Of a stretch of DNA of 64,000 nucleotides, positions 24,810-49,116 are shown in pieces. How positions within the stretch are numbered: position 1 is the stretch's first letter; every line of letters starts with the position of its first letter. The position numbers and the translations under genes are program-made. The stretch is from Cochliopodium minus (Eukaryota > Discosea > Himatismenida > Cochliopodiidae), in contig JAMYWO010000130.1 of assembly GCA_024220525.1 (NCBI GenBank), positions 57,755 through 121,754 of the forward strand, in the 5' to 3' direction. The notes beneath the pieces are model-generated. The model did not search any database. It saw only the letters and a program-made list of their open reading frames with translations, and was not told the origin of the DNA.

Positions 24810-27198
24810 TTAATTTTGATGGAGGTTAGTAATAAAAGAAAAAAAATTTTTGGAAGGAGAAATCTTCCCAAGCAAATGAGAATCACCATTAGTGACAGAA
24901 GTGATGTTGGAAGGGATCCCGAGTAAAGTAGAAAGGCCTAGAATGGCAAAGCCAGCAGCCTCTTTGTTGTCAGAATTGATACCAAATAGTTTGTCATACT
25001 CCCCAATATTCTGTATTGTAATCTCCTTGTTATCTTGTTAAAAAAACAAAGATTATAAGTAGGCAGGAAAAAGTTTTGAAAGAAAAGAAATATTTGTAAA
25101 AAAATTTTTTTTTTTTTTTTAAAGTTACCTAGTAATTCACTCATTCTTTTCATCAGAAAAAGATTTTTGGCTCCACCCCCACTAACAAATATTTTTTTGG
25201 GAAGAGAAAAAGTCTTGTTGTTAAAAATAAAGTTTTGATAGCTTTCCACAATAGTCTGGGCAGTGAACTCCAAAGCAGTGCGGATGATGTCTTCGTCAGG
25301 AGAATTGTAGAGAGATTTGGCCTCTTTGTAAAAATTTTCGGAGAATTCCCGTCCATATCTTTCACGTCCTTTTTAAACGAAAAAAAAATAATTAAATTTT
25401 TATAATTTTTTTTTAATTTATAATTTTTTTTTAATTTATAATTTTTTTTTAATTTATAATTTTTTTTTAAAAAAAGTTTTATGTTTACCAGTAGATTTGG
25501 GAGGTTGTTTAGAGAAATAATCATCCTTTTTGATTTTTGTGAGAAGAGGTTCGATGATCTTTCCAGTTGAGGCAAGATGACCATTCTCGTCATAATTTTT
25601 GTCATAAATTTTTTTCACGAGCCAATCAATAACCTTTGTCAAAAATAAAAAAAGAAATTAAAAAAAAAGTAAAAAAAAGATTAATTTCAAAAAAAAAAAA
25701 ATATAATTAAAAAAAAAATAAAGTAAATAAAATAAAATGGAAATAAATGACAAAATAAAAAATAATAAAATCATTTATTTCGTATAAAAAAATAGATTAC
25801 CATGTTCCCCGGTCCATTGTCAAAAGCTAGAATGTTTTCTTTATTAGAATTAGAAGGAGGGAGATACGTACAATTAGAAATGCCTCCTATGTTTTGGAGA
25901 ATGATGGGTTCTTCTTGGCAAAATAAAAATGCGTCACTTTCGAGAATAAAAAAAAAAAATTTAAAAGAAGAAAAAAAAATTTTTTTACCAAAAAGGGATC
26001 AATGGAGCTCCTTGTCCACCTTTATATTGAAATGAATTTAAAAATATTTTTAATATTTTTATTTAATTTTTACATTTTTTTTTACTTTTTTATTTTTTAT
26101 TTTATTTTTTTATTTTTTTACTTTTTTATTTTTTATTTTATTTTTTTATTTTTTTATTTTTTTACCACTTGAAATGTCTTTCATTCTGAAATCAGAAACA
26201 GTGGTGATTCCTGTTCTTTCCGCTATGACACATCCATCTCCAATTTGCAATGTGGAAGCAACACTGTTGCCAGTATTTGGAGGAATATGATAAATGGTTT
26301 GTCCATCTTAAAAGATTATTAAAAATTGGTTCTGATTTATTTAAATATTTTTTTTTAATTTTTTAAATTATTTATTATTTTTTACATTTTTTTTAAAATT
26401 TTTTTTTTAAAGTTTTTTTTTTATATTTTTTATTGTTTTATTGTTTTATTTTTTTTTCAATATTTTTTTTTTATTTTTTTACGAGAAGCAATGAAAGAAA
26501 TTTGAGAGAAATCAATCTTGAATTTTTGAAGGAGATTCATCGTCGCTTTAGCAAAATGCACCCCTATTTCGACATTGAGCTGGCAAATCATGCTCACGTT
26601 GGATTGGGAGACGTTTATTGCTTCTTCTAATTTCTTTTTCAATTCTCCGTCTATTTGGGTTTCTTCATATCCCTTCACCTTCATTATCTTATCTGATGAA
26701 AATTCCACCAATACTGCATCTATCCCATCCATCTTTGTTATTACAATTTTTGAAACGAAATTTAAAAAACAAATATTGAATTTTTTATTTATTGTATTTC
26801 AATTGATGGAATGCTAATATCTATTTCATATCCGGAGAAAGTTTATTGAGCAAATTAATTTGATTATATAATTTTGAGATCCAAATTATAATTAATATTG
26901 ATATCTGACTTGTTTCTCTTTGATAAATCAAATTTATCAATTTTTATTAAACATAAGAGTATTTTTATGGAAAAATGATTTTTTTTTTTACCGATGTTCC
27001 TTGTTTATTTGGGATTGATTCAATTTGAATATATATTTTTCATTATTTTACCACTCTTGTTGAAGAAATATTCGATTATGAAGTAAATTTGAAAGAATAA
27101 AGGACAAATACCATCAATCCAATTGCTAAAATATTATTCTTGAGATTTTTGATCCTATTTCTCAGAAGGATATAGTTTGATTCTTGTATATTCTCCAT
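24810..27198 (-). CDS. anmK: Anhydro-N-acetylmuramic acid kinase (AnmK) family protein with 4-nt and 8-nt microexons
   Basis: Ten exons (complement): 27112-27198, 27052-27055, 26992-26999, 26483-26732, 26166-26306, 25989-26019, 25801-25936, 25489-25633, 25129-25368, 24810-25033; 421 residues. Landmarks: AIGLMSGTSMDGIDAV (phosphate-binding loop), SHGQTIYH, VSDFR, GGQGAPLIPF, LQNIGGISNCT, FDNGPGNM, FVSGGGAKN. Bacterial AnmK hydrolyses and phosphorylates 1,6-anhydro-MurNAc for peptidoglycan recycling; a eukaryote could use it on eaten bacteria. The SGTS codons exist only if AGTG (4 nt) and GAACATCG (8 nt) are spliced in. Intron 9-10 region (25400-25472) holds an 18-nt tandem repeat. Confidence 0.92.
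25400..25472. repeat. 18-nt tandem repeat in an AnmK intron
   Basis: About four copies of AATTTATAA followed by nine T, directly between exon 9 and exon 8 of the minus-strand gene. It is simple-sequence intron DNA. Confidence 0.8.
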
Positions 27199-28568: not shown

Positions 28569-31500
28569 TTATAAGAAAGGAGACCAACCGATATAACTTC
28601 TTCCAAGAATGTTGGGGTCGATAGCTTGATCAATAAGACAGTCAACCTGTTCTTGAACAGTATCACAGATTTCCCTAGATTTGGCCCTGACGTTGTAGTC
28701 TTTGTTTCCGTAGACGATTTGTTCGAGGGACTTGAAGTAAGGTTGACTGGAGTGAACACCTTCTTTGAGTTCTTGAACGGTAATGTAAGAAGGATTGTAG
28801 CGATTGAGTTTCATGGTGGCAATCTTAATCTTCTTTTTGGGAAACCAGACAGAAGGATGATCCGAGGAGTTCTTTTGCTCATGAACCAAACGACGAGCAA
28901 GTTTTTCCCAATCCAAAAGAGGCTCCTTAACAAAGATCTCCATGGTGTTCAACAACAAACTTTGGTTGGCTTGGAGACAGCTGAGGGTATGAACCATGTT
29001 GTGTTTGAGAGATCCTTCGATGTCGAGAGGAAGAAAGACGTTGGTGATTTGAGGGGTGAGACGAAAAGGGATCAACTCGGGGATAGGAAGAAATTGGGTG
29101 GCAGTGCCGAAAGCGTGACCAAAATCAATTCCGATGATCCCTCCGTTTGTTTCGTCCAAAAGAAAGTTTTCCAAGTGACGATCTCCGATACCCAAGATGT
29201 AGGAACAAATGTTGAAGACGGAAAGAGAGGATCCAAAACGAGATCTGATGGAGAGGTATGCTTCGTAGGAAATGGCCATGGATTGGATACCCTTTCTGAG
29301 GTAGTCACCTTTGAGCGAGGAAAGTTGTTGGTTGACTTTAGAAACGACGTCGGTCCTAGTGGCATGATCGTACATAGCGTAATATGGGCCAGCTGCAGTG
29401 TTCACTCTCTTTCCTGCCTTGCTTGCGAAAGATTCGAGCCAGTTTTGGTGGATTTTGACGGCAGGAAGTTTCAACACGTTCTCTTTTGTTCCTCTTTCCT
29501 TGGAGATTTCTGCTTCTATGATTTGTTTGATAGGCTTGGTGTTGTTGACCCACTCGATCAAACCAACTTGAGTTGTCATTGGAATGACCTTGTAGGTTTT
29601 CAAGTACAATCTTCTTTTACGGCAAGCAGGATCGTTTTGGATGAGATTGTTCATGATGTTGAAAAGATATTGCACTCTTTGATCGAGACGCAGATCCTCT
29701 CCTCCTTTCACCAAAAACGCATAGTCTTTTTCATCACTGGCATGCATTTTTACTCTCTTTGGCTTTCTTAGAGATCCCATCACAAGTATATCCATGTCAA
29801 AGTTGGATACGATAACATGGCTGCTTGGATCTGGTTTGCATGAGTTTTTGTTATTTTGATATTGATCATACTGGCCAGGTATCTCAATTTTGTTTGAAGA
29901 ATGGTTGGTTTCATCAAAGTTGGAGAGCCACATCGAAAACTCGGACAATTTTCTTTTGTCTGTGCCGTGAGGTAGCATGTTTTCTTTCATTTTGGTGTTG
30001 AGTTTGACGAATATATTGTTGAATTCATTGACATCCATTTTGGTAAGCTTGGATCCATCTTTTCCGAAAGCACCCTCTACTTCTTTGTTCCATTTCTTTG
30101 CGAAATCTCTGTTATAAGAACCAATATCCTTCTGGTTTACATCAAACAAATCTTTCCACACTTCTTGATAAAGCACTTTGATCTTTTGTGCATCCTTAAC
30201 TTTAACGAGTTCTCTCATAGAATCCATGGAATCTTTGAATCTATGCTCTGGATGTGTGAGTTTTTGGAGTGAACTAACCATCTCCTCAATCACATCGTTC
30301 CTAAGAATAGTTTCCAACTTTTTGATTCTTTCAGCCGCAAACTTGTTGTCCTGTAAGCCTTCGCTACTGATCTTGAAAGAGTAGTAAATGGATTGTGGGT
30401 AAGTGAGTGCTATTTGTTCGAGAATACTCATGACAGATTCTCCTTCAGGTTGGGAAAGAAGAGACATCATTTGAGGGATGAATCTTACAAACATCCAACA
30501 AGAGATTTGGTTTGTGGAGGACTTGAATGTTTGCCAAATCTCTTCGTGTTTTCCCAACAACTCAAAAATTCTGGGAACTTTCTCGGCAGCACGGAAAGAA
30601 TCGAGTTTGATGGCTTCTAGGATTTGTTCTACTATTATTTTTGCATACTTTCCTTTCTTTTTGCTGGATTTCTGTTTGTAAAAGACACTGTCGCAAAACT
30701 CTGAGAACTTTAGGAAACTTTTGGATGCGGTGTTTGGATTGAAATCATCTTTTGAGATTTTCTTTTCGATGATGTTTTGATGTTGCTGTTGGTAGGATGT
30801 TACGGTGGATTGAAAGAGATGGTAAGATTGATTGAAGAAGTGGCCTGAGAGATCATTGGTTTGCATCTTGGATAAAAACTGGATTTTTTCGGTGACTGCT
30901 TTGAGATTCTCTTGTGAAAACCCTTTAAGTAAGCTCCCAATTTTAAGGGAGATATCAGCAATCAACATGTTGTATTTCTTTTGATTTTCAGGATAACTTT
31001 CGATGAATTCAAATTTTTCTTTGGATTTGACAAACTGGAAGGCTTTTACAAACTTTTCGAGACTATCTTCGCTTTTCTTCGAGAATTTAGCTTTGAGGCA
31101 ATAGAGTTTTACCAAAGATACAAAGAAAGAAAACTCAAACTCGTTTTGAGGAGAGCTGATATTCTTTTTTTCTTCGACAGTCTTTTTCATGTAGCTTTCG
31201 GAGACTTGGAAGTTGTGTTGTTTTCTGCAAGCATCCGCAATAATCTTGTAAATTTGGCACTTGTGGAGAGTAATCATTTGGCTGACTTGAGGGACAAGAG
31301 ACTTGTCTTTCTGGGTATTAAACTTTTCCACAATCTTTTCGAGTAATAGCGTTCTGTTGACGATCATATCATCCCATACATTCACGTCATCGAGGTAAGG
31401 AGACGGAAATCTACCGTGCCAAGTGTCCAGCAATTTTTTGAGAGGATCAGTGGTTTTGAAGTTGTTATCAAGTTTGATGAATCTGATGTATTCTTCAATC

Positions 31501-34500
31501 TCGGAAACAGGCTGCAAGTTTTGAAGTAAGATTTGCTTTCCTTCGACATCCAACTGATGCAAAGAGGACCATTTGTCCAGACTTTGCTCGTAACATTTGT
31601 TTATATAAAACTCTGCTTTGTCGTTATGATTGTAAGCGATAGACATGAAACACAATTGATTTCCGTAATCAGATAAAAGTTGCAAACGATTTTGGGGAAT
31701 CTTTTCATTGTTGTGGAAGAATTCATCGAGCTGTGGCCAGAGATTCTTGATCTTGACATGTGAACAAATGAAATGGGAGAGATAAGGCTCCTTGAACTGG
31801 GGATCCCACAACTTTTGAGGTTCATCTACTTCTACATTGGTGTTATCTGCGAGTTGTTTCCACAATAACAATTTCTTGAAACAGTTGAGTCTTCCGTTTT
31901 CCCATAAGTCGATTTCTTGTTTGGATTGAGATACATCATCATTTTCATCAATCTCTTGGAGTGCTTCCTGATAAATTCTGAGTGCATTAGCAAAATCACC
32001 TTTTAAGATTTTATTGATAAATTTAAATTTTAAAGATAAATAAAACTTTTTATACCTTCAATTTCAAACTCTATTGCATTTTTTGTGTGTTTCTCCTTTC
32101 CCAAGAATTGAGAATACAAACCCAAAATGATATCATCTTGATGGAGAGATTGATAGAGTTTGATTAAGTTGGCCCAAATCTCCTCCATTTTCTTGTTGGT
32201 GGTGTCGGAAGATGAAAAACTTTTCTTCTTCTTGGAGCTTCTTTCTTTTGTTTTGGATTTGAGTTCTTCAGATAAAATCATCATTTGTTTTTCGAGCAAC
32301 ATGATCCCACTGTGAAAGTTTTTGCTTTGATAGCTGAGCTTTCCCACGACAGAAGAAGGAATCAAAGCAATAGAATCATCTTCGTAGCAAATCTTTTGAA
32401 GGCATCCGACGAAAGGAGTGTTGAATTTGATGCTGCTGGATAACATCTCGCCGATTTGAGATTTCAATCTTTTCTTGATCATATCCACTGTCAAGTTTTT
32501 GTTCTCCTCTCTAAATGATCCACCAATAGATATGCTATCATTATCATTCTCTTCGTAATTCAATTGATATTCAGACAAGATCGATTTCACCAACATGGTC
32601 ATCACGATTCTGGAGAGCTCAGGATCTCTCTTGCAAAGCGCTTGAAGGGGCTCAATGATTTCTCTGGGTCTGATTTCCACATCTGGAAGAGCACCCAATC
32701 TGTAAGAACGAAAGATCTTTACTCTTTTGGTGTTTTTTATATCATAGGAGAGCTGTATCATATCTTTTTTTTGTTGAGCCCTTTCAATTTGCCAACGAGA
32801 GATCCTTGGATTCTTGAAAAATCTTTTCTGTAGAACTTGTTTGTTTTTCTGTCCTGTGTTCTCGAGAGTAGGATTAAAAACCAATGTAGTGGTAGAAGGC
32901 TTGGGGAGTTGGTTGTTGGTGTTGTTTTCGCTGATTTCGTTATCGTTTCTTTTTCTCTTTTTTTCTACTTTCCCAGTTACAACAGCAGACACAGAAGTCA
33001 AAGCTGGGTTGATGGCGTAACCAGAAGGTCTCATATTTTTGGTGTCAATACCAGAATGGATATCAAATGATCCAAATTCCAAACTGTTAAGCGTTGGAGA
33101 CAAAGAGATTTGATTGTCTTGTGATTGAGATGTGTTGGTTTGAGTGAAAGAAGGAACCTGGTAAGTTCCAGAAGTAAGAGCGCCAGTAAAAATAGGAGTG
33201 ATTGGAACTGATCTGTCATCAGAGATGTTGTACTCATTGAATTTACACTCTCTTAATGGAGTGAACATAACAGATTCATACTGAGATGTTTTAGTGGATG
33301 TGGCCAAGATCAAATTGGAACTGTAACTCAACCAGTACTCTTCTAATTCTGGACTGTACAATTTTCCAAAGAAGTTTTCGAGCCTTGTTATGGTTAGTAA
33401 AGGAAGATTGGATTCATCGTTCCAAAAAGAATAAAGCAAAGATTCAATCTGGGTGGATGAGTCAGCAAGACCAGACAACAAAAGAAGAAAGATCCTTTCG
33501 AACACGGTTTTGCTCAACAAGTGTTGATCAGAATCTTTTTCAAATTGGATATGTTGTTGATACATCCAAATCAAAAATTTATAGAGTTGCAATTTGCTTT
33601 GTTCATCGAGGACATCAACATTCATATCAATGATGATTGAAGACAAAAACTGAACATTTTCATCGGACAAGAATTCTCTGGTCTCGTAAACAATTTGAAG
33701 CACAACCAACTGGATTTCTGGCTCACTATTTGTCAACAACATTTGGAATTGGGGTTGTAATCTCTTGAATAAATTTTGTACAGTAGAAGCTCTCAAGAGA
33801 ATGAGTTTGAGTGCAATAGCTTTGAATTCAGTCAAAAGAGTAGGCAACACATCAAAGATTTGGAGAAAGAAGATGTCCAAGAAAGAAGGAGCATTGTTGC
33901 CGATCTCTTGGAGGCAATGCAATGCCCTGTTGAATTCTCTTCTTGAGAATTGTCCTCTGATTCTTTCAATGACGAGCTGAGAGAAAGAATCTTTGCTAAA
34001 AATAAGCTCGTTCGAACTGTTTTCTTCATCTCTCAAACTTAAACTGTTTGTGTTCTTTTGTTTTCTGTTTCTTTGGTTGTCTTTTACCACAGTCTTTTGG
34101 TTTGTAATGGTTGAAAAATAAATACCACAAAACTCAGCAGTGAGGCAGTAGACTTCTTTGTAGTTGTGATTGAGGCAAGTGACAATCGACTCGTACAACC
34201 TGATGGGAGAAATATCATTATCAACTCGATCATCGTACAATTTCAATCCACATTTTAGAATGACCGAGTAGAGCTTAAGGGCAGTGATTCTGGAGAGTTT
34301 GGAAGATTTAGTATTTGTATTCAAATTGAGATAATCAAACAAACTCTTTTTGGAGAATTCAAAATGTCCTTTCCATTTTTCGAACAAAAGTCTGAATATT
34401 TGGATGTTGTCCCTCAAAACTTCTCTGTTTGTATAAAGAGAATTGTGGGCCAAATGATCAAAAAACTTTGTGACAACACCCCTCTCTTCTCTATCGTTTT

Positions 34501-37500
34501 CTTTTGGCATACAGTTCCTCCAAGTCAAAAAGAGGATGCAGAGATCCCTTGTGAAATAGTGAATTCCTTTTCCGTATTGAGTGGAAAGAGACAGTAATAA
34601 CAAAGGCTTCAACCAATACTTTGAGTATTTCTCGAACAACTTTGGTCTCATCAAAACAACTTTAGAAATGAAGTACTTGATGTTGATGTGGGTGTCTGAT
34701 TGCATTATCTTGGTGTGTAACTCCTCCATCCATTTTGGCATCTTTTCTGTCCAAGTGTATCCAAACTTGTCGGCCAAAGTATCAATCAATTTCAAAATTG
34801 TTTGCATGCAAGGATTTCTGTTGATTGGATCCAATTCAAAGATTTTATCAGATTCTTTCTGAACGTTGGTATCGTTTGTTTTAGCGGGAGTTTTTGGACT
34901 TTCAGGTTCTTGGATGGATTCATTCTCCAAAGATATCTCGACATTGTTGTTTTGATCATCTGCAACATTCAAAAAGTTCTTTTTAGCTTTTGAGGGAGTC
35001 AATGGAACAAAAAAAGGGGACTCGGCAATGTTCTGGCTGAGAGAACTGTCCTCCAAAAACTGAGAAGAAGCAAATCTGGAGTCATACTTCTCATTTTTTT
35101 CTTTATCATTTTCATTTTCATAAATTTCCTTTCTGTTGAGTGTTGTGAACTGTGTTTCAACCTCGAAAGTGTATACTTTGTTAAGATCGACAATGTTTTC
35201 CCACAAAATTTCTCCCTTTTTGGGATTTTCTTTGAAAAAGAAGACAGTAAAAAAGTTTTCTTGTGATTGAGTACACATGACAATAGATGCGAGAGCGTTG
35301 TAAGCAGAGCTATGATATTTTTGGAGTAGCTCACTGAATTGGCCCAAAACAGTTGGATCGTTATTTTGAACAGGAATCTGGATACTTCTCGATTTGCAGT
35401 TATGTGCCGATTTCATTACTGCGGTGGTTAGTTCGGTACCTTTGTTAACAGAAAGGTTTGGAGAAAGATAAGCTTCATTGATTGGTCCTTTTATCACAGA
35501 TGGATCGATCTTTTTGTAAAAAACGCATAGCAAATCAAGATTACAGATCTTTTCAATCAAAATGCTTTTGAATTCGTTCAAGTTTAGATCACTCAAAGGT
35601 TGTTCGATGAATTCGGATATTTCTTTCACATTTTGTGAAAATATCTCAGCCAACTCTTTGGATGGCAAAAGTTCAGACAAGGGAATGCTGATTTTGGACA
35701 TTAAGGTGGATCTCAAATCATCAGGATTAGATTTGTTACAAAATTCATTCCAAATAGATTTCCACATCACTATAGCATTTGGAAGATCATGTGAAAGACT
35801 GACAACTAGCTTCTTGAGAGATAAATCAATTTCTTGAATATGTGCATGAGTAGTCTCATTCAGAATAGGAAACAAAACTTTCAATAAAGAAGGGCTTTTA
35901 CTTTTGACGAGGGAATACAACAATTTGTCGATACTGTTGATGTAGTCGTTAAATAAAGGGGTTCCTTTTGTGATGTGCCCAGAGTTAACAGGAAAGTCGT
36001 AAACAACAATCTCGTTCACTTTTTCTATCAGAAACTTTTTGTGTTTCTCTTGGATCGAAGAAGATAATAGAATAGGAAATATTTCCAATACTTCAACCTT
36101 GAAGTGAAGAGGGTTGGTCTTTTGAAGAAGATCATCACATGTTGTCATGATAAAATCTACACCTTGAAGTTTCTCGTGGAGCACATACTTTGTGTCCAAA
36201 GTGAGAAGCCTATGAATGAACTGGATGATCGGTTGCTTCTGTTCGAGAGATTTGACTTCTCTTGACCAAGTCTTTAGTTTTTGAATGTATTTCATGACAT
36301 TTTTGAGAAAAAATTTGAATTGATCTTCATCTTCGTAGTTAAAGTCATCAATGGAGAGGGTATTGGGCAATGTTTTGGGAATAGAAATAGTTTTTTCTCT
36401 TTGCTTCTTTCCCATGATCTGCCTATCAATCAAGCTGAACATGATCTTTAAGATGACGGGATTAGATTTCATTTGGAGGATGATGGAGCGAGAATAGTAC
36501 TCGAAATTTTTGGAGAAATGCTTTTCGAGCAACTGGCCAAAGATCTGATAAAAAATAGATCCTTTGGTGGATTTATCCTCGATCTTGTCTTTCTCATCTA
36601 TCTCATTGTTGCTTACTTTTTCAACTACAGTTTCGTCAGTCAAGAAATTAAAGATGATAGATCCTTCCAAGCCAAGAGAAAAAGAAAGATCCAAAATATC
36701 TGTCGCAAGAAGAACTTGTATCGGAGAGTAAGTATGTGCTTGGGTAAAAATATTGTTTGCGATGGTGTTTCTGATTTCTTCTTTTGAACTTCCAAGTGCT
36801 TCTTCAAGAAGACCCAAAGAGTGCAACTGTTTATAACCATTGATCAAGCTGGATCCTTTGTTTACACTAAACTTAAAACTCTTGAGATCCAAGTTCAAAA
36901 GATCGAAAGTCTTTTCTTTTCTGAGAAGATTAGATAATAATTTTTTAATCTTTGAATCCAATCTATCTTTATCTTTGGAATACTCTTTTATTGCAGAAAG
37001 AACAGATCTGGTGTGTTTTGGTAGAGCCACTTGTATGACACGATCGTTCAAGTTGAATCCAATTTGAGATGGATCGAGGATGGATTGATAGATTAAATTG
37101 ATGAGAGTTTCATCAATGTATTTCTCGAGATATTTCTGAAAGAATTTTGGATGTGTGTCAATCAACATCACAATAAATCTGAAAATTTTGAGAACTAAAA
37201 CAGATTTGAGAGAGAACAAAGATTCTTGTTCCAATGGTGTCAAAGAAGGGAACTGATCAATCTTTAAATGAGAAAACTCTTCCAAGAAATGGCCAATCAT
37301 CGAATAAATCTTTGTTGGATCTTTTTTGTTTAGAAAGACAGAAGGATCAAGCAACTTTCTCTTGAAGATCCAATAATAAGAATCCAATTTAGTAGTCAAA
37401 TCTTTGAAAAAATTAGTGATTTGAACAAAAGTATTCCCAAAGATGAGATTAGAAACTGGAGTGGAAGGAGGTTTGTACTTTTTTCTGTCGGGTTCAAAAA

Positions 37501-40500
37501 TGTCAAGAAAATATGTGAAAGAGAATTCATTATGTTTGCTTTCCACCCAATTGTTTCCATTTTGAAGATGCGAAGATAAATCATTAAAAAGTTTGATGCA
37601 TTCCTTTCTGTATCTTGTTTCATATCTTCCTGTTTCAGTAAAAATCCAGTCAACAAACTTGGAGAGATCAGAATGCAATCTTCTTCCAGTATGTTGTTTG
37701 AGAAAAGTGTTTTTATTTTTGATGACCATCTTTGATACTAACTTTACAGCCAAAACAGCTTTTTCGAGAGTTCCCAATGAAGGCTCATCTCTGTCACAAA
37801 GTTTCAAAGTGAACAAACAATTATGAAGCATTTCCAATCCAAAGATACTCACCAAAAGTTTGTGTTTCCTAAAAGTGTCAAACATTTCAATTATTGTCAA
37901 CGAAGATCCAAGTCTTTTATAAGGGCTTGGCTGATGAGAAAGGCTGTAAAGTCTTTTAAGTAGAGATTTGATGTTGAAAGGGTTTTCTGGGTTCTTTTGG
38001 TTGTCAGAGTGTTGTGTTTTTTGTTCGTAGTGATAGATTGAAGATCTCAAAAATTCCGACAAACATTTCGAGCTGAATTGACGAAGAGATCCAGACTCAT
38101 TACCAACTGCATCGACAATTGCATCCAAGAGCGACATTGTTTCAAGATTTTCCGATTTTTTGTTACTTGTAAACCAGTTTATGAGTTGGTAGATCAAAGG
38201 TTCGAAGAGTTGTCTGGTGATAGTTTCCACATCTGTGGCCAATCTCAACAAAACGGGAAAAACTTTTGTGTAGATGTTGTGGAAAGGAGTCTTAAAAAAA
38301 AAATTGAATAAATAATATAATCAAAAAATTTTTGATTGGAAAAAATTTTACTGCTTGTGTTTGGGTATCTCTTCTTGGGTTGTTTGCGTTGGTTCCAACC
38401 ATGAACAAGATCAAAGAGTGCAACAATTCACAAGCAGCCACTTTGGTTTGTCTATCGTTGGCTTTTTCTGCAAGAGTTATGATACGAGGCAAAACTTGAT
38501 CGAAATAGATAGAGGGTTTCATATCGTACAATGGAAGTTGGAATTTGATTCTTTCGATTGTATCCCAAGCAATATCTTGGTTGGTAGTTTCAACATCAGA
38601 TAATATGTCATTGTTCAAAGATCCTAATTTTCCTAAAAATCGAAGGATTTTGAATTGAAATTCTGTGGATTTGTTTTTTTGATTTGAGATTTGAAAGGTG
38701 ATCTTTTTGTTGGCTCCTACTTCAGCCCTCTTGAACTTTCTTTTGGATGAACTTTCAAAAGATTCTTCGCTTTCAATGTGTAATTTCAAAAAATCATTCA
38801 AGTTTGGTAGAATTTCATTCATATGAGGAGAGATAACATTAGGGATGGATTTCAACCATTTCTCTAAAGAGTACAAAGCTTTTTCTGCAATCGAAATGTA
38901 GAAACTAGATGAAAGACCGATCTTGAAAGCTATTTTGAAGCAAGGTACAATCTGGACAAATGATACAAGTTGTTTTGGCAAACTGAGAATCAACTCGATC
39001 GAAGAGCTCAAAAGTTCATCCTTTTGACTTTGCAACTTTAAGCACAACTCTCCAACAAACTTGGAAAATAGCACAAAGCAAATTTGAGAAGCACTTTCAT
39101 CTATATTCTCTTTTGGTAGAGTATCTTTGTTTAGATTGCCAATAGAAGCAAAGTAGTCGAGCTCCTCGGCCAAGTTCATCACCATTGTTAATAACTTGTA
39201 AAACCCAGTGACAAAAGGGAATTCGTTGGACTTTTGAATCAAAAGTTTACCAAAAATGTAGATCCATCTTGTGAAAAATGATTTCTGCGTTTTATTCAGA
39301 ATGTATGTGGAAAAGCCAACCAAGTTTGAAAAGATCTCAAAATCTTTGATAACGTTTGGAACCACCATGTCAGTATGGACTTCGTTTGAAGTGGATTGAT
39401 TCTTGGTAGACAAATTTAACTTTTCAACAATAGAAATGATGCTGGTCAATAAATGATCATACACAATGGAATTCATTGAAGATATTGATTCTTTGCTGAA
39501 CTGTTCTCCTTCGAGTAGATTTACAGGTGAATCAAGGATGTTTATCCAAAGAGGGGCGTAAAGCATGAACAAAGGAGCAGATTGACTGCTTTGAAAATTG
39601 AAAGATTTGTTTTGTATAGTTGGCGCCTCTGTTAATGTTAGCGTCAACGCTTGGAACATGAATCTCGATAAAAGAGGTTTGAGAGATCCTTTGTTGTACA
39701 AGCACATGAATAACTTTGATATTGATCTAAAGTGATGAAATTTTTGGTTGTCAAAAAGGAAAATGAAAACTCCAAATACAGAAGCAATCAACTTTTCGAA
39801 ATTGACGATATAGCTCTCGTCTATGGTATCCAACTCTGCGACAATGTTAGCGAAAGCATAAATAAAACTTGGAAGATGGTGAGCTGTATTGACCAAGTTA
39901 TCATCAGTTGAAGACAATTCAAAAGTGCTTAGTTGGGAATTACTGTAGAAAAATCTATCACTCAAGTCGAAGAGCTTGTTCAAAACCTTTTTTAGTTCGT
40001 TCGTGCCAATGAACACTTTCATGGAAGGAGCAAAATACCCAAACCCTCTTACACCTACAGAAATGTCGTTGATATTCTGTGACTGATCAGATTCAAGGAG
40101 CTCGAAGAATTTCTTGATAAAAAAGGTGAATGTTTTCTTGTTGGATTCGACATTTCTTTCTTCGGAACAAATTTCAGAGGCGACTACCTTGAAGAAGGAG
40201 TCCAATGCTTTAAAACCAAGGTTTCTCACTTCTTTGTTGTTATATTTACAAAGTGCAGAAACACGAAGAAACATTTTTTCACTGTCCTCGGTGAGATATT
40301 GTCTGAGCAAGAAAGAATGTTTGTTGATGAATTTCAATCCAGATCTAGGGATATCATATCTTGCCAAATCTTTTGGAGGGGTAATCGCAAGAACGATGAA
40401 ATTGTATACCATCTGAACATTGTTTGGATTTTGAATGAAATCTCCAGAAAAGTTTATCAAGAATGAGCAAAGACCTTCCAATCCTCCTGCTATCACTTGC

Positions 40501-41208
40501 ATTTGTGGTTCTTTTGATTTGAATTGCTTGGTTAATGCTTCTATATAGATTTGAAGGAGGGTCTTTGATTTATCATACATCACAACTGGATAATATTGAG
40601 CAAATAAACCCAATATCTTCAATATTTTTGCACTCAACGTTTGTGATATACGCGTCAAGTTGTATTGATTCAAGAATATGTTTGTCATATCATCCACATT
40701 CAATGATATCGCATCCAACGATGCTAGTTTCAAATCCAAAATTTTTATTATCGGATCAAATATTGCTTGTTTTACTGTATTTGATTGATCCACTTTGAAA
40801 ATGGAAATGCAAATGTTTTTAATCTCTATAGCATATTCAGATATCTTATCTTTGAAGAAATCTATGAATTCTGCAATCAAAATCAAAAGGGCTTCCCTAG
40901 GTTTCACAAGATCCTTATTATAACCAACAATAGGTGTTTTCTCAAGAAATTTCAGAATATTATTATTTGATTTGAACAATAGGAAGGTATATATCGCTTT
41001 TTATTTGGAAAATATATAAAAGTGAATGAAAAATTGCGCAAAAAAATAATATTTGGTTAAATTTACGTATATCTTCTTTGGTTGAATTCTCAAAACATAG
41101 AGTCTTAATTTCTTGAATTATGGATAAAGGATTTTCATTCTCTGGATCAATATTTGTTGTGGTGGTAAAATTGTTTAATTTCTCAAGAAGTTTTTCAAGA
41201 TTATCCAT
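28569..41208 (-). CDS. PRKDC: DNA-dependent protein kinase catalytic subunit (DNA-PKcs)
   Basis: Four exons (complement): 41067-41208, 38352-40996, 32056-38290, 28569-31999; 12,453 nt and 4,150 residues (human 4,128). Most of the length is helical-repeat solenoid, then the FAT region, the PI3K-like kinase domain (about residues 3,650-4,110) and a FATC tail. The kinase has an intact catalytic loop GIGDRHLENF (about residue 3,940) and IDFGHAFG, so it is not the inactive TRRAP. DNA-PKcs-specific matches are TATQFLPIPELIPFRLT, MEIFVKEPLLDW and the end AIDPNILGRSYIGWSPF. It joins DNA ends with Ku in non-homologous end joining. The coding region has no frameshift, which shows that local sequence quality is good. 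Confidence 0.96.
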
Positions 41209-46957: not shown

Positions 46958-49116
46958 ATGAACAAAAAAATAGAAGAAATAAAGGTGAAATTCAAATTTC
47001 TTTAATTATTTCATTTTTGAATATTTCTTCAAGATTATCTTATTGGGTATTACAGTATTACATCATCTTTTTTCTTCAAAATTTTGAATAGAGTATTTTC
47101 TTAATTTAGGGAAGGTGGGATTGGAGCCAAATCTGCATGTGTAATTAGATTTATGCAGAATATATTTATCAATGGTGCTTATATTTTAAAAGAAATTTTA
47201 ATCAAAGCAATTTTTATTTTGATCACTCACATTAATAGAATATGATCCCACAATTGAAGACAACTATAGAAAACAGATAAAAATTGATGATGAGACAATA
47301 ATTCTCGACATAACCGATACAGCAGGGTAATTAAAAATAAATGATCAGATTTGATCTGTCAATAATCAAAATCTTTTTTCAACATTTTATATTATTTTGG
47401 AAAACTCAATAAAATTAAAAAAAGACAAGAAGAATATAGCGCAATGAGAGACCAGTGGGTGAGACAAGGAAATGCATTTCTGTTGGGATTCTCTGTTACT
47501 TCTGAAAATAGTTTCATTAACATGTGTCCCTTTTTTAATAGCATCAAGAATTTAAATAATTCAAGTTGCAATGAGTGTAAAAATGGAAAAAAAAAAAATT
47601 GATTAATACAAAGTAAAAAAAAAGGTATCATGGCTATAATGGGAAACAAGGGTAACAAAAAAAAAAAGAAAAAAAATTTACATTAAACATTCTTAAGATT
47701 TACCTTCATTTGACAATTCTTAAGATTTCATTGACAAAAATAACTTTTTAAAAAAAATTTTGATTAAAAAATTTGTTAATAGTCGACTTGGTGGAAGAAA
47801 GGAAGGTTTATGAATGTGAGGGAAAGGCGTTCGCAAGGATGTTGGGATGTGAATACTTTGAAACTTCCGCTAAAACGGGTCAGAACGTTTCGGAAAGCTA
47901 CTACAACGTGGTGAGGGAGTACAGAAAGTCGGTTAGAGAACCCAACTACCTCCTCAACAAAAAAAACAGAAAAAGAAACATTTCATTGATAATAGGGAGG
48001 GGTTGGTTGAGTTTTTTGTCCTCTATGTTTTCTCCTGATTTTGGGAGTTTTGAAGTCCCCGAAATCAATCAAAATTTGAAAAATGTTTGGACCTTAATTT
48101 TTTCTTATTTGGTAGATGAGAGATCTTTAAGAATTAAAACTAAATTGGTTTGTAAGTATTGGTGCCATTTGATCTCCACAAGTTTTCCTTTGGGATTAGG
48201 TCAGTCTAGGTTCAAGATGAAAGCATTCGAGACCAACAGAGGTTGTGCTTTGCTGGTAGATTGGTCGAGCCCTCTTTATTTCGATAATATCGTGGAATGT
48301 ATTGCTTTTGTTGATGTTTCCGAGTTTTCTCTTAAATTCGATTTGACACGAACTTATGTAGACCTGGCCAAAGAATGGCTTCACAACAAATCTTACAATC
48401 CTTTGCCAGTTACTGTTGTTCTCCACAATTTTTCACAACTCAAAAAAAATATCGAAAAGGGAGCCACAACACACAAGAATTTTAAATTGGGAAATTGGGT
48501 TCAAAATCGAAAATATATTTCAAAACAATTCGGTAGTTATCATACAATTGAGATTGATGATTTTTTGTCGAAAGAAAATTTGAGTTTGTTATTCAAAGAG
48601 TTTCCCTTGCTTCGTTCCAAATTCATTTCGAATTCTGGTGAGATTGTGTCGTCTGACTGTAAGAACTCCAATTTCGACATGATTCTTGTTTGCAATTCCC
48701 CCAAAAAAATCCCTTTTTACCTTCAACAAGCGACTTTATTTGTAAAAAATCTATCCATAAGGGATGTAAGGGAAGAAAACATGCAAATAAACAAAGTTAT
48801 CCAAAAAAATAAAGAAGAAATCAAACTTCCTGTTCAAGATTTCACCATTGATATGATTTTAAACAAACTAAAAAACGAATGGACAGGCAAAATCAATTTT
48901 ACTAACTCCAACAATTTTGATTTAAAAGTTAATATTGTTGGATCCATTCCTTTTCAAGCTGAAAAATCTTCTTTTAATTTGAAAAAGAATTATTCTTTTC
49001 CGCTCGAAATAAAGATTACAGGTCAGAAGATAGATGGTGCTTTTTTTGTAGCAAGAATGAAAAAGACTGCCTTCACTAAAACTAGAATATTTTTAAAGCT
49101 CATTTGGTGTGATTGA
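46958..49116 (+). CDS. Ras-family GTPase fused to an F-box region; one-base frame break at the P-loop
   Basis: Exons: 46958-46984, 47034-47046 (13 nt), 47110-47174, 47239-47326, 47425-47576, 47625-47651, 47783-49116. Encoded: [76 protein letters not shown]. The last exon carries Ras helix 5 and, without interruption, an F-box-like segment ([31 protein letters not shown]) plus ~330 further residues. There is no CAAX box (end KLIWCD). Exon 2 to exon 3 is one base short of frame in a GGG run, and the P-loop has an extra Ala (GEGGIGAKS). About 568 residues if repaired. Either an assembly indel or a recent mutation. Confidence 0.82.

Follow-up and report, generated by a model that had tools for sequence, protein, structure and literature searches.

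The window analysed here, a 64,000-nt stretch (G000:C130:57755-121754) of a 44.65-Mb draft genome in 598 contigs, appears to carry an intact eukaryotic gene for AnmK, probably of bacterial origin, in which the near-invariant SGTS motif is built from two consecutive and normally included microexons of 4 and 8 nt; we put the probability of this reading at roughly 0.92. AnmK is an ATP-dependent sugar kinase of peptidoglycan recycling, and the genome, which is AT-rich, was judged to be eukaryotic by its DNA-PKcs, Ras family, and eIF4A genes. Exons of 4 and 8 nt in a row put to the test how small spliced exons can be and how close together they can lie, and gene finders will tend to overlook a motif encoded in this way and call the gene broken. 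The gene is predicted to run along the minus strand from 27198 to 24810, with the following features.

27112..27198, minus strand: exon 1, 87 nt, MENIQ...AIGLM, donor gtattt; its N-terminal extension resembles those of P0001, P0002, P0003, and P0006 in a loose alignment.
27056..27111, minus strand: intron 1, 56 nt, GTATTT...CAACAAG.
27052..27055, minus strand: exon 2, predicted 4-nt microexon AGTG (the serine codon and base 1 of the glycine codon), from the spliced aligner and the chain count.
27000..27051, minus strand: intron 2, 52 nt, GTAAAA...AAACAAG.
26992..26999, minus strand: exon 3, predicted 8-nt microexon GAACATCG (bases 2 and 3 of the glycine codon, then T and S), from the spliced aligner and the chain count.
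26733..26991, minus strand: intron 3, 259 nt, GTAAAA...ACAAAG.
26483..26732, minus strand: exon 4, 250 nt, MDGIDAVL..., from the spliced aligner.
26307-26482, minus strand: intron 4, 176 nt.
26166..26306, minus strand: exon 5, 141 nt, from the spliced aligner.
25989..26019, minus strand: exon 6, 31 nt, GGQGAPLIPF, from the spliced aligner.
25801..25936, minus strand: exon 7, 136 nt, from the spliced aligner.
25489..25633, minus strand: exon 8, 145 nt, from the spliced aligner.
25129..25368, minus strand: exon 9, 240 nt, from the spliced aligner.
24810..25033, minus strand: exon 10, 224 nt including the stop codon; the profile alignment ends at 24849.

The model thus comprises 10 exons (87, 4, 8, 250, 141, 31, 136, 145, 240, and 224 nt) and 9 introns (56, 52, 259, 176, 146, 52, 167, 120, and 95 nt), and its spliced protein is predicted to be 421 aa long. 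All nine introns begin with GTA and end with AAG. With splice borders marked by a slash, exon 1 ends in phase 0 at GGATTGATG/gtattt, the two microexons lie in the contexts caacaag/AGTG/gtaaaa and aacaag/GAACATCG/gtaaaa, and exon 4 begins at 26732 as acaaag/ATGGATGGG. Joined under the predicted splicing, exons 1 to 4 read ATG AGT GGA ACA TCG ATG GAT, that is, M S G T S M D. By their length and GT-AG borders, exons 2 and 3 are predicted microexons (no longer than 15 nt, internal, and spliceosomal). Introns 1 and 2 fall on the short side for a genome whose 190 predicted introns have a median of 68 nt and 5th and 25th percentiles of 49 and 59 nt; the intron lengths of the gene are compatible with that predicted distribution. 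Counting against the main reading is the donor of intron 1, gtattt, which is less usual, the fourth intron base being T in only 13 of 92 Ras family introns and A in 73.

The predicted spliced product is a full-length AnmK. It matches PF03702 (AnmK) with an E value of 5.4e-96 and 322.3 bits (curated cut-off, 24) over positions 3-365 of the 367 in the profile, and its PDB matches (3cqy, E 2e-65; 4zxz, E 1.1e-60; 3qbw, E 9e-43) are solved AnmK and levoglucosan kinases. Because the match to levoglucosan kinases is nearly as good (E 1e-60), anhydro-MurNAc is a putative substrate, and the product presumably functions as an enzyme. Among the matches listed, the closest homologue is P0001, at 49% identity. 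SGTS was found in 119 of the best 120 homologues (of 8000 scored), with TGTS in the remaining one; in the present protein, it occurs near the N terminus only when both microexons are spliced in. The listed invariant columns of a 16-row alignment (15 close homologues plus this protein) are all kept, a check made at the level of alignment columns. In this regard, the protein shares with the PF03702 family almost the entire domain, the SGTS motif, and the remaining invariant columns of the alignment; the gene differs in being eukaryotic and containing nine introns, whereas the matches in 80 prokaryote loci are single stretches. Moreover, the 24 residues ahead of AIGLM align, if loosely, with the extensions of the four homologues named above, which supports exon 1. 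The original prediction had called the gene AnmK, ended exon 1 at GLM, started exon 4 at MDGID, placed AG and GT around both microexons, and held that LMSGTSMDG needs AGTG (27052-27055) and 26992-26999 in series. The family assignment, the borders and phase, and the splice sites seen on both sides of each microexon all agree with it, and the motif does emerge from the phase-correct spliced reading.

Could the motif have arisen by chance, with short pieces that merely resemble exons and some other, unseen exon supplying SGTS? Short AG..GT intervals do occur anyway: in the 379-nt gap between exons 1 and 4, there are six of no more than 30 nt, which, with introns of at least 35 nt, can be joined into 23 chains, 8 of them in frame. 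However, one of these eight adds exactly SGTS and another adds SGTS plus a third piece (SGTSKQ), so that the motif comes only from these two exons, with or without the piece adding KQ. When the gap is modelled as a first-order Markov chain, 5.7e-7 two-exon arrangements are expected for SGTS and 3.3e-6 for [ST]G[TS]S, and a solution with one or two exons appeared in none of 20000 dinucleotide shuffles. The original prediction had considered a chance fit very unlikely; these figures bear that out, and we regard such a coincidence as highly improbable. We give still less credence to an assembly or sequencing artefact that split a normal exon. The genome is a 598-contig draft, and no sign of such an artefact was found; against it, the inserted stretches have splice sites and intron lengths typical of the genome, and similar structures occur at other loci. 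A spliced profile aligner, trained on 117 homologues and bound only by GT..AG and a minimum intron of 35 nt, recovered identical splice borders when an intron cost 6 bits and when it cost 9 (the profile trimmed the outer ends). Once simple splice-site scores were included, the local score was 86.3, falling to 79.4, with the loss of exon 1, when either microexon was forbidden. That score was reached by 2 of 400 shuffles, none of the five best shuffles contained a small exon, and an internal exon of no more than 12 nt was present in 19 of the 400. As a general test of the microexons, the profile is weak; it does not use the motif to the full, so the case rests on the exact motif.

The same aligner bears on whether the N-terminal part is used at all, since translation might instead start at the ATG at 26732 (MDGIDAVL) and yield a shortened and probably inactive protein, or the gene might be decaying. 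Exon 4 indeed opens with ATG, and no stop interrupts its frame upstream as far as 26798. When each intron cost 9 bits, the model lacking exons 1 to 3 was equal within 0.2 bits, and at 12 bits, these exons were lost and the downstream start preferred; from this break-even point, exons 1 to 3 earn about 27 bits. A start bypassing the 12 nt would, however, cost GLMSGTS along with exon 1, and the family is matched in order and phase by exon 1, by the two microexons and, loosely, by the N-terminal extension. The remaining exons are intact as well, with all invariant columns of the 16-row alignment kept, and we consider this reading very unlikely. A further, unlikely, possibility is that exons 2 and 3 are cassette microexons, whose joint skipping (as one 379-nt intron) would join GLM to MDGID in frame without SGTS and might serve as an on/off switch for the enzyme. 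In its favor, the two exons sum to 12 nt, both flanks are in phase 0, and skipping either one singly breaks the frame. However, any pair that spells four whole residues keeps the frame, and frame-keeping is therefore no evidence of regulation.

How might two such exons be spliced when normally included? Introns 1 and 2, at 56 and 52 nt, would most likely be recognized across the intron (intron definition). Short introns recognized as units need no minimum exon, and exon size would then not be limiting. On steric grounds, splice-site factors flanking an exon of 4 nt would get in each other's way; because of this, we expect the introns to be removed one by one. Removal of intron 1 first or of intron 2 first would fit the sequence equally, and the splicing of both microexons in vivo is likewise inferred. 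As to their birth, the microexons probably arose by intron insertion at neighbouring sites of an intron-free transferred gene.

AnmK matches were found at a single genomic location. A tree was built from 117 sequences selected from the nearest ones, its named records being prokaryotic by choice of collection; in it, the window AnmK falls with bacterial and unnamed proteins (SH-aLRT, 97), grouping with P0001, P0002, P0003, P0005, and P0006 and an Omnitrophota genome record that carries the same gene as P0005. No eukaryotic relative of this AnmK was found in the sets searched, which are mostly prokaryotic. The gene was probably transferred from a bacterium and then gained nine introns; it is the single genomic place, together with the grouping with bacterial and unnamed proteins, that makes gain after the transfer the probable order of events. 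If the gene did come from a bacterium, a eukaryotic lineage would have gained its introns, and the microexons would then stem more naturally from intron insertion than from the shrinking of exons. A genome-wide search for introners took in intron 3, which matched only itself, with no second copy; such a search calls for sequences longer than introns 1 and 2. The other introns may have a repeated origin. Among 194 introns compared, there were 71 matches at E 1e-3 or better, the best of them pairing AnmK intron 4 with intron 4 of a Ras family gene (L081) at 78% identity over 107 nt, which could reflect simple sequence rich in AT or a common origin of the two introns.

A second gene of the window touches on expression. 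The spliced protein of an eIF4A-like helicase (18110-16862, minus strand) is 100% identical over 385 residues to P0125, a transcript-derived EukProt entry, and a transcriptome of the source species, or of a very close one, thus seems to be on record in EukProt. No AnmK of that eIF4A-matching species was among the matches listed in the AnmK homologue search (best, 49% identical). This is neutral to mildly unfavorable for the main reading; the gene may not be expressed there, or its transcript may not have been assembled.

Tiny exons seem to be abundant in the genome, as judged from its Ras family, the sole family sampled for their frequency. The family is large, with 164 matches in the genome. 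Our sample of 60 loci (L036-L095), nearly all with a six-frame match starting mid-domain, is biased to interrupted genes, and the loci were aligned to a profile built from uninterrupted paralogues of the same genome. Exons were counted in the 51 loci scoring at least 100, with nine lower-scoring loci dropped (L054, L061, L070, L073, L077, L083, L086, L089, and L090). These 51 have 139 predicted internal exons, of which 3 are no longer than 4 nt, 14 no longer than 15 nt, 41 no longer than 24 nt, and 68 no longer than 51 nt. Microexons of up to 24 nt form 32 runs; 4 runs spanning at least 700 nt (L048, L058, L072, and L076) were left out of shuffling, and of the 28 tested, 24 were unmatched by any of 24 shuffles. 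The four that were matched are one of two runs in each of L045, L066, and L071 and one of three in L078. Exons of up to 15 nt (n = 14) lie mostly in passing runs (10), with 3 in failing runs (one in L045 and two in L066) and 1 in the unshuffled run of L058. Also counting against the main reading, these Ras microexon calls are partly noise, in that up to 12 of 24 shuffles held some small exon.

Passing runs include 18- plus 20-nt exons in LWDT/AGQERF of L044, with counterparts in L056 and L081, as well as the 14- and 13-nt exons of L084, an 11-nt exon in L037, and a 4-nt exon in L094. Short exons also occur in series as 7 plus 16 plus 23 nt in L058 (left out of shuffling) and 10 plus 15 nt in L066 (which did not pass). 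Candidate 2-nt exons lie in passing runs of L062 and L078; the one in L062 would complete the conserved tryptophan ahead of DTAG, and its removal lowers the score from 126.0 to 89.2, although the substitute model also has small exons. Calls of 4-nt exons are weak or unsupported in L086 (76.7 versus 73.0 when forbidden) and L089 (87.5 versus 87.5) and modest in L090 (86.2 versus 81.9).

The best parallel to AnmK is L094 (contig C375), where two tandem Ras-like paralogues (L094:320-1065 and L094:1548-2512) with 64.3% coding-DNA identity and 41.9% protein identity each have a predicted 4-nt exon, matching in phase and position, in the motif WD[ST]/[AS]G/QE. These read aaag/TCTG/gtaaaa in WDS-SG-QE and aaag/GCGG/gtaaaa in WDT-AG-QE. 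Among 57 loci, 16 have the first of the two introns bounding this exon and 5 have the second; the second occurs without the first in L084, L074, and L051, and both occur in L090 and L094. Both positions are thus found singly in paralogues, and the 4-nt exon appears where the two meet. It is likely, in our view, that the AnmK microexons arose in the same way. The expanded Ras family provides a test bed for this insertion idea, with neighbouring intron sites in different paralogues and both sites in some. More broadly, we lean slightly towards the view that ultra-short exons are routine in this lineage: intron definition would have lifted the lower size limit, and motifs (SGTS of AnmK and the P-loop and DTAGQE of the Ras family) would be pieced together out of exons 2 to 24 nt long, often serial, at any spot where introns gained independently fall near one another, transferred bacterial genes included.

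Adjacent microexons are already known as a kind. Pairs of 5 plus 12 nt were reported in rice Os08t0562700, where they were validated by RT-PCR, and in a Zygnema peptidase M1 gene, for which gradual intronization was proposed (PMC8831610, PMC11096116). Like the AnmK pair, these are two consecutive microexons overlooked by annotation, those of Zygnema in a conserved coding region (PMC8831610, PMC11096116). The AnmK pair differs in its size of 4 plus 8 nt, in lying in a non-plant gene of probable bacterial origin, and in being known here from sequence alone. Single-nucleotide exons have been described in APC11 and VPS55 of plants and CYP621A of Fusarium (PMC12940212, PMC8831610); there too, an ultra-short exon is required for the frame and for a conserved stretch (PMC12940212), although theirs are single and RNA backed as presented in these sources, whereas those of AnmK are serial and read from the DNA. 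In Phanerochaete chrysosporium, an 8-nt microexon lies in the I-helix motif of a P450 and so, as in AnmK, within a highly conserved motif, albeit in another gene and lineage and with one microexon described in the part of the report drawn on here (PMC12940212). Schistosoma micro-exon genes have many short exons (3-81 bp) per gene, but they encode secreted proteins and have long introns, whereas the AnmK pair lies in a conserved enzyme core (PMC10526429). In Creolimax, microexons of 3-15 nt have been searched for (PMC4739763). Our search of the literature on microexons in protists and other unicellular eukaryotes, a question partly too broad to test and with subscription journals outside its reach, found no report of such a genome, and searches on AnmK with gene transfer to eukaryotes and on AnmK structure returned nothing relevant. 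As far as we have seen, the AnmK pair is unusually small and lies outside plants, animals, and fungi. Judged by these searches, the new elements are the size of the pair, its lineage, the gene's probable origin in bacteria, and a hint of frequent tiny exons across the genome.

Several other genes were noted in passing. The DNA-PKcs gene of the window (28569-41207, minus strand) has N-terminal, CC, FAT, kinase, and FATC domains; with three introns modelled over 12.6 kb, it contrasts with the intron-dense small genes. When its first 2316 residues were used as a query, four matches were returned, three from animals and one from a fungus, at 21-26% identity. A universal pattern for small-subunit rRNA found no exact match. 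Anaeramoeba came under consideration as the source for its abundance of Rab genes and its gene transfers (PMC11550330), but no result ties it to this genome, and the assignment was not adopted. A Ras-like gene of the window (L093; 46960-47964, plus strand) has an unusual P-loop, and the aligner picks another, doubtful start for it; a 13-nt exon considered at 47036-47048 did not fit the frame and was dropped. Elsewhere in the genome, a Ras-like match (G000:C1:633782-634150) lies inside an extraordinarily long open frame of 14711 residues.
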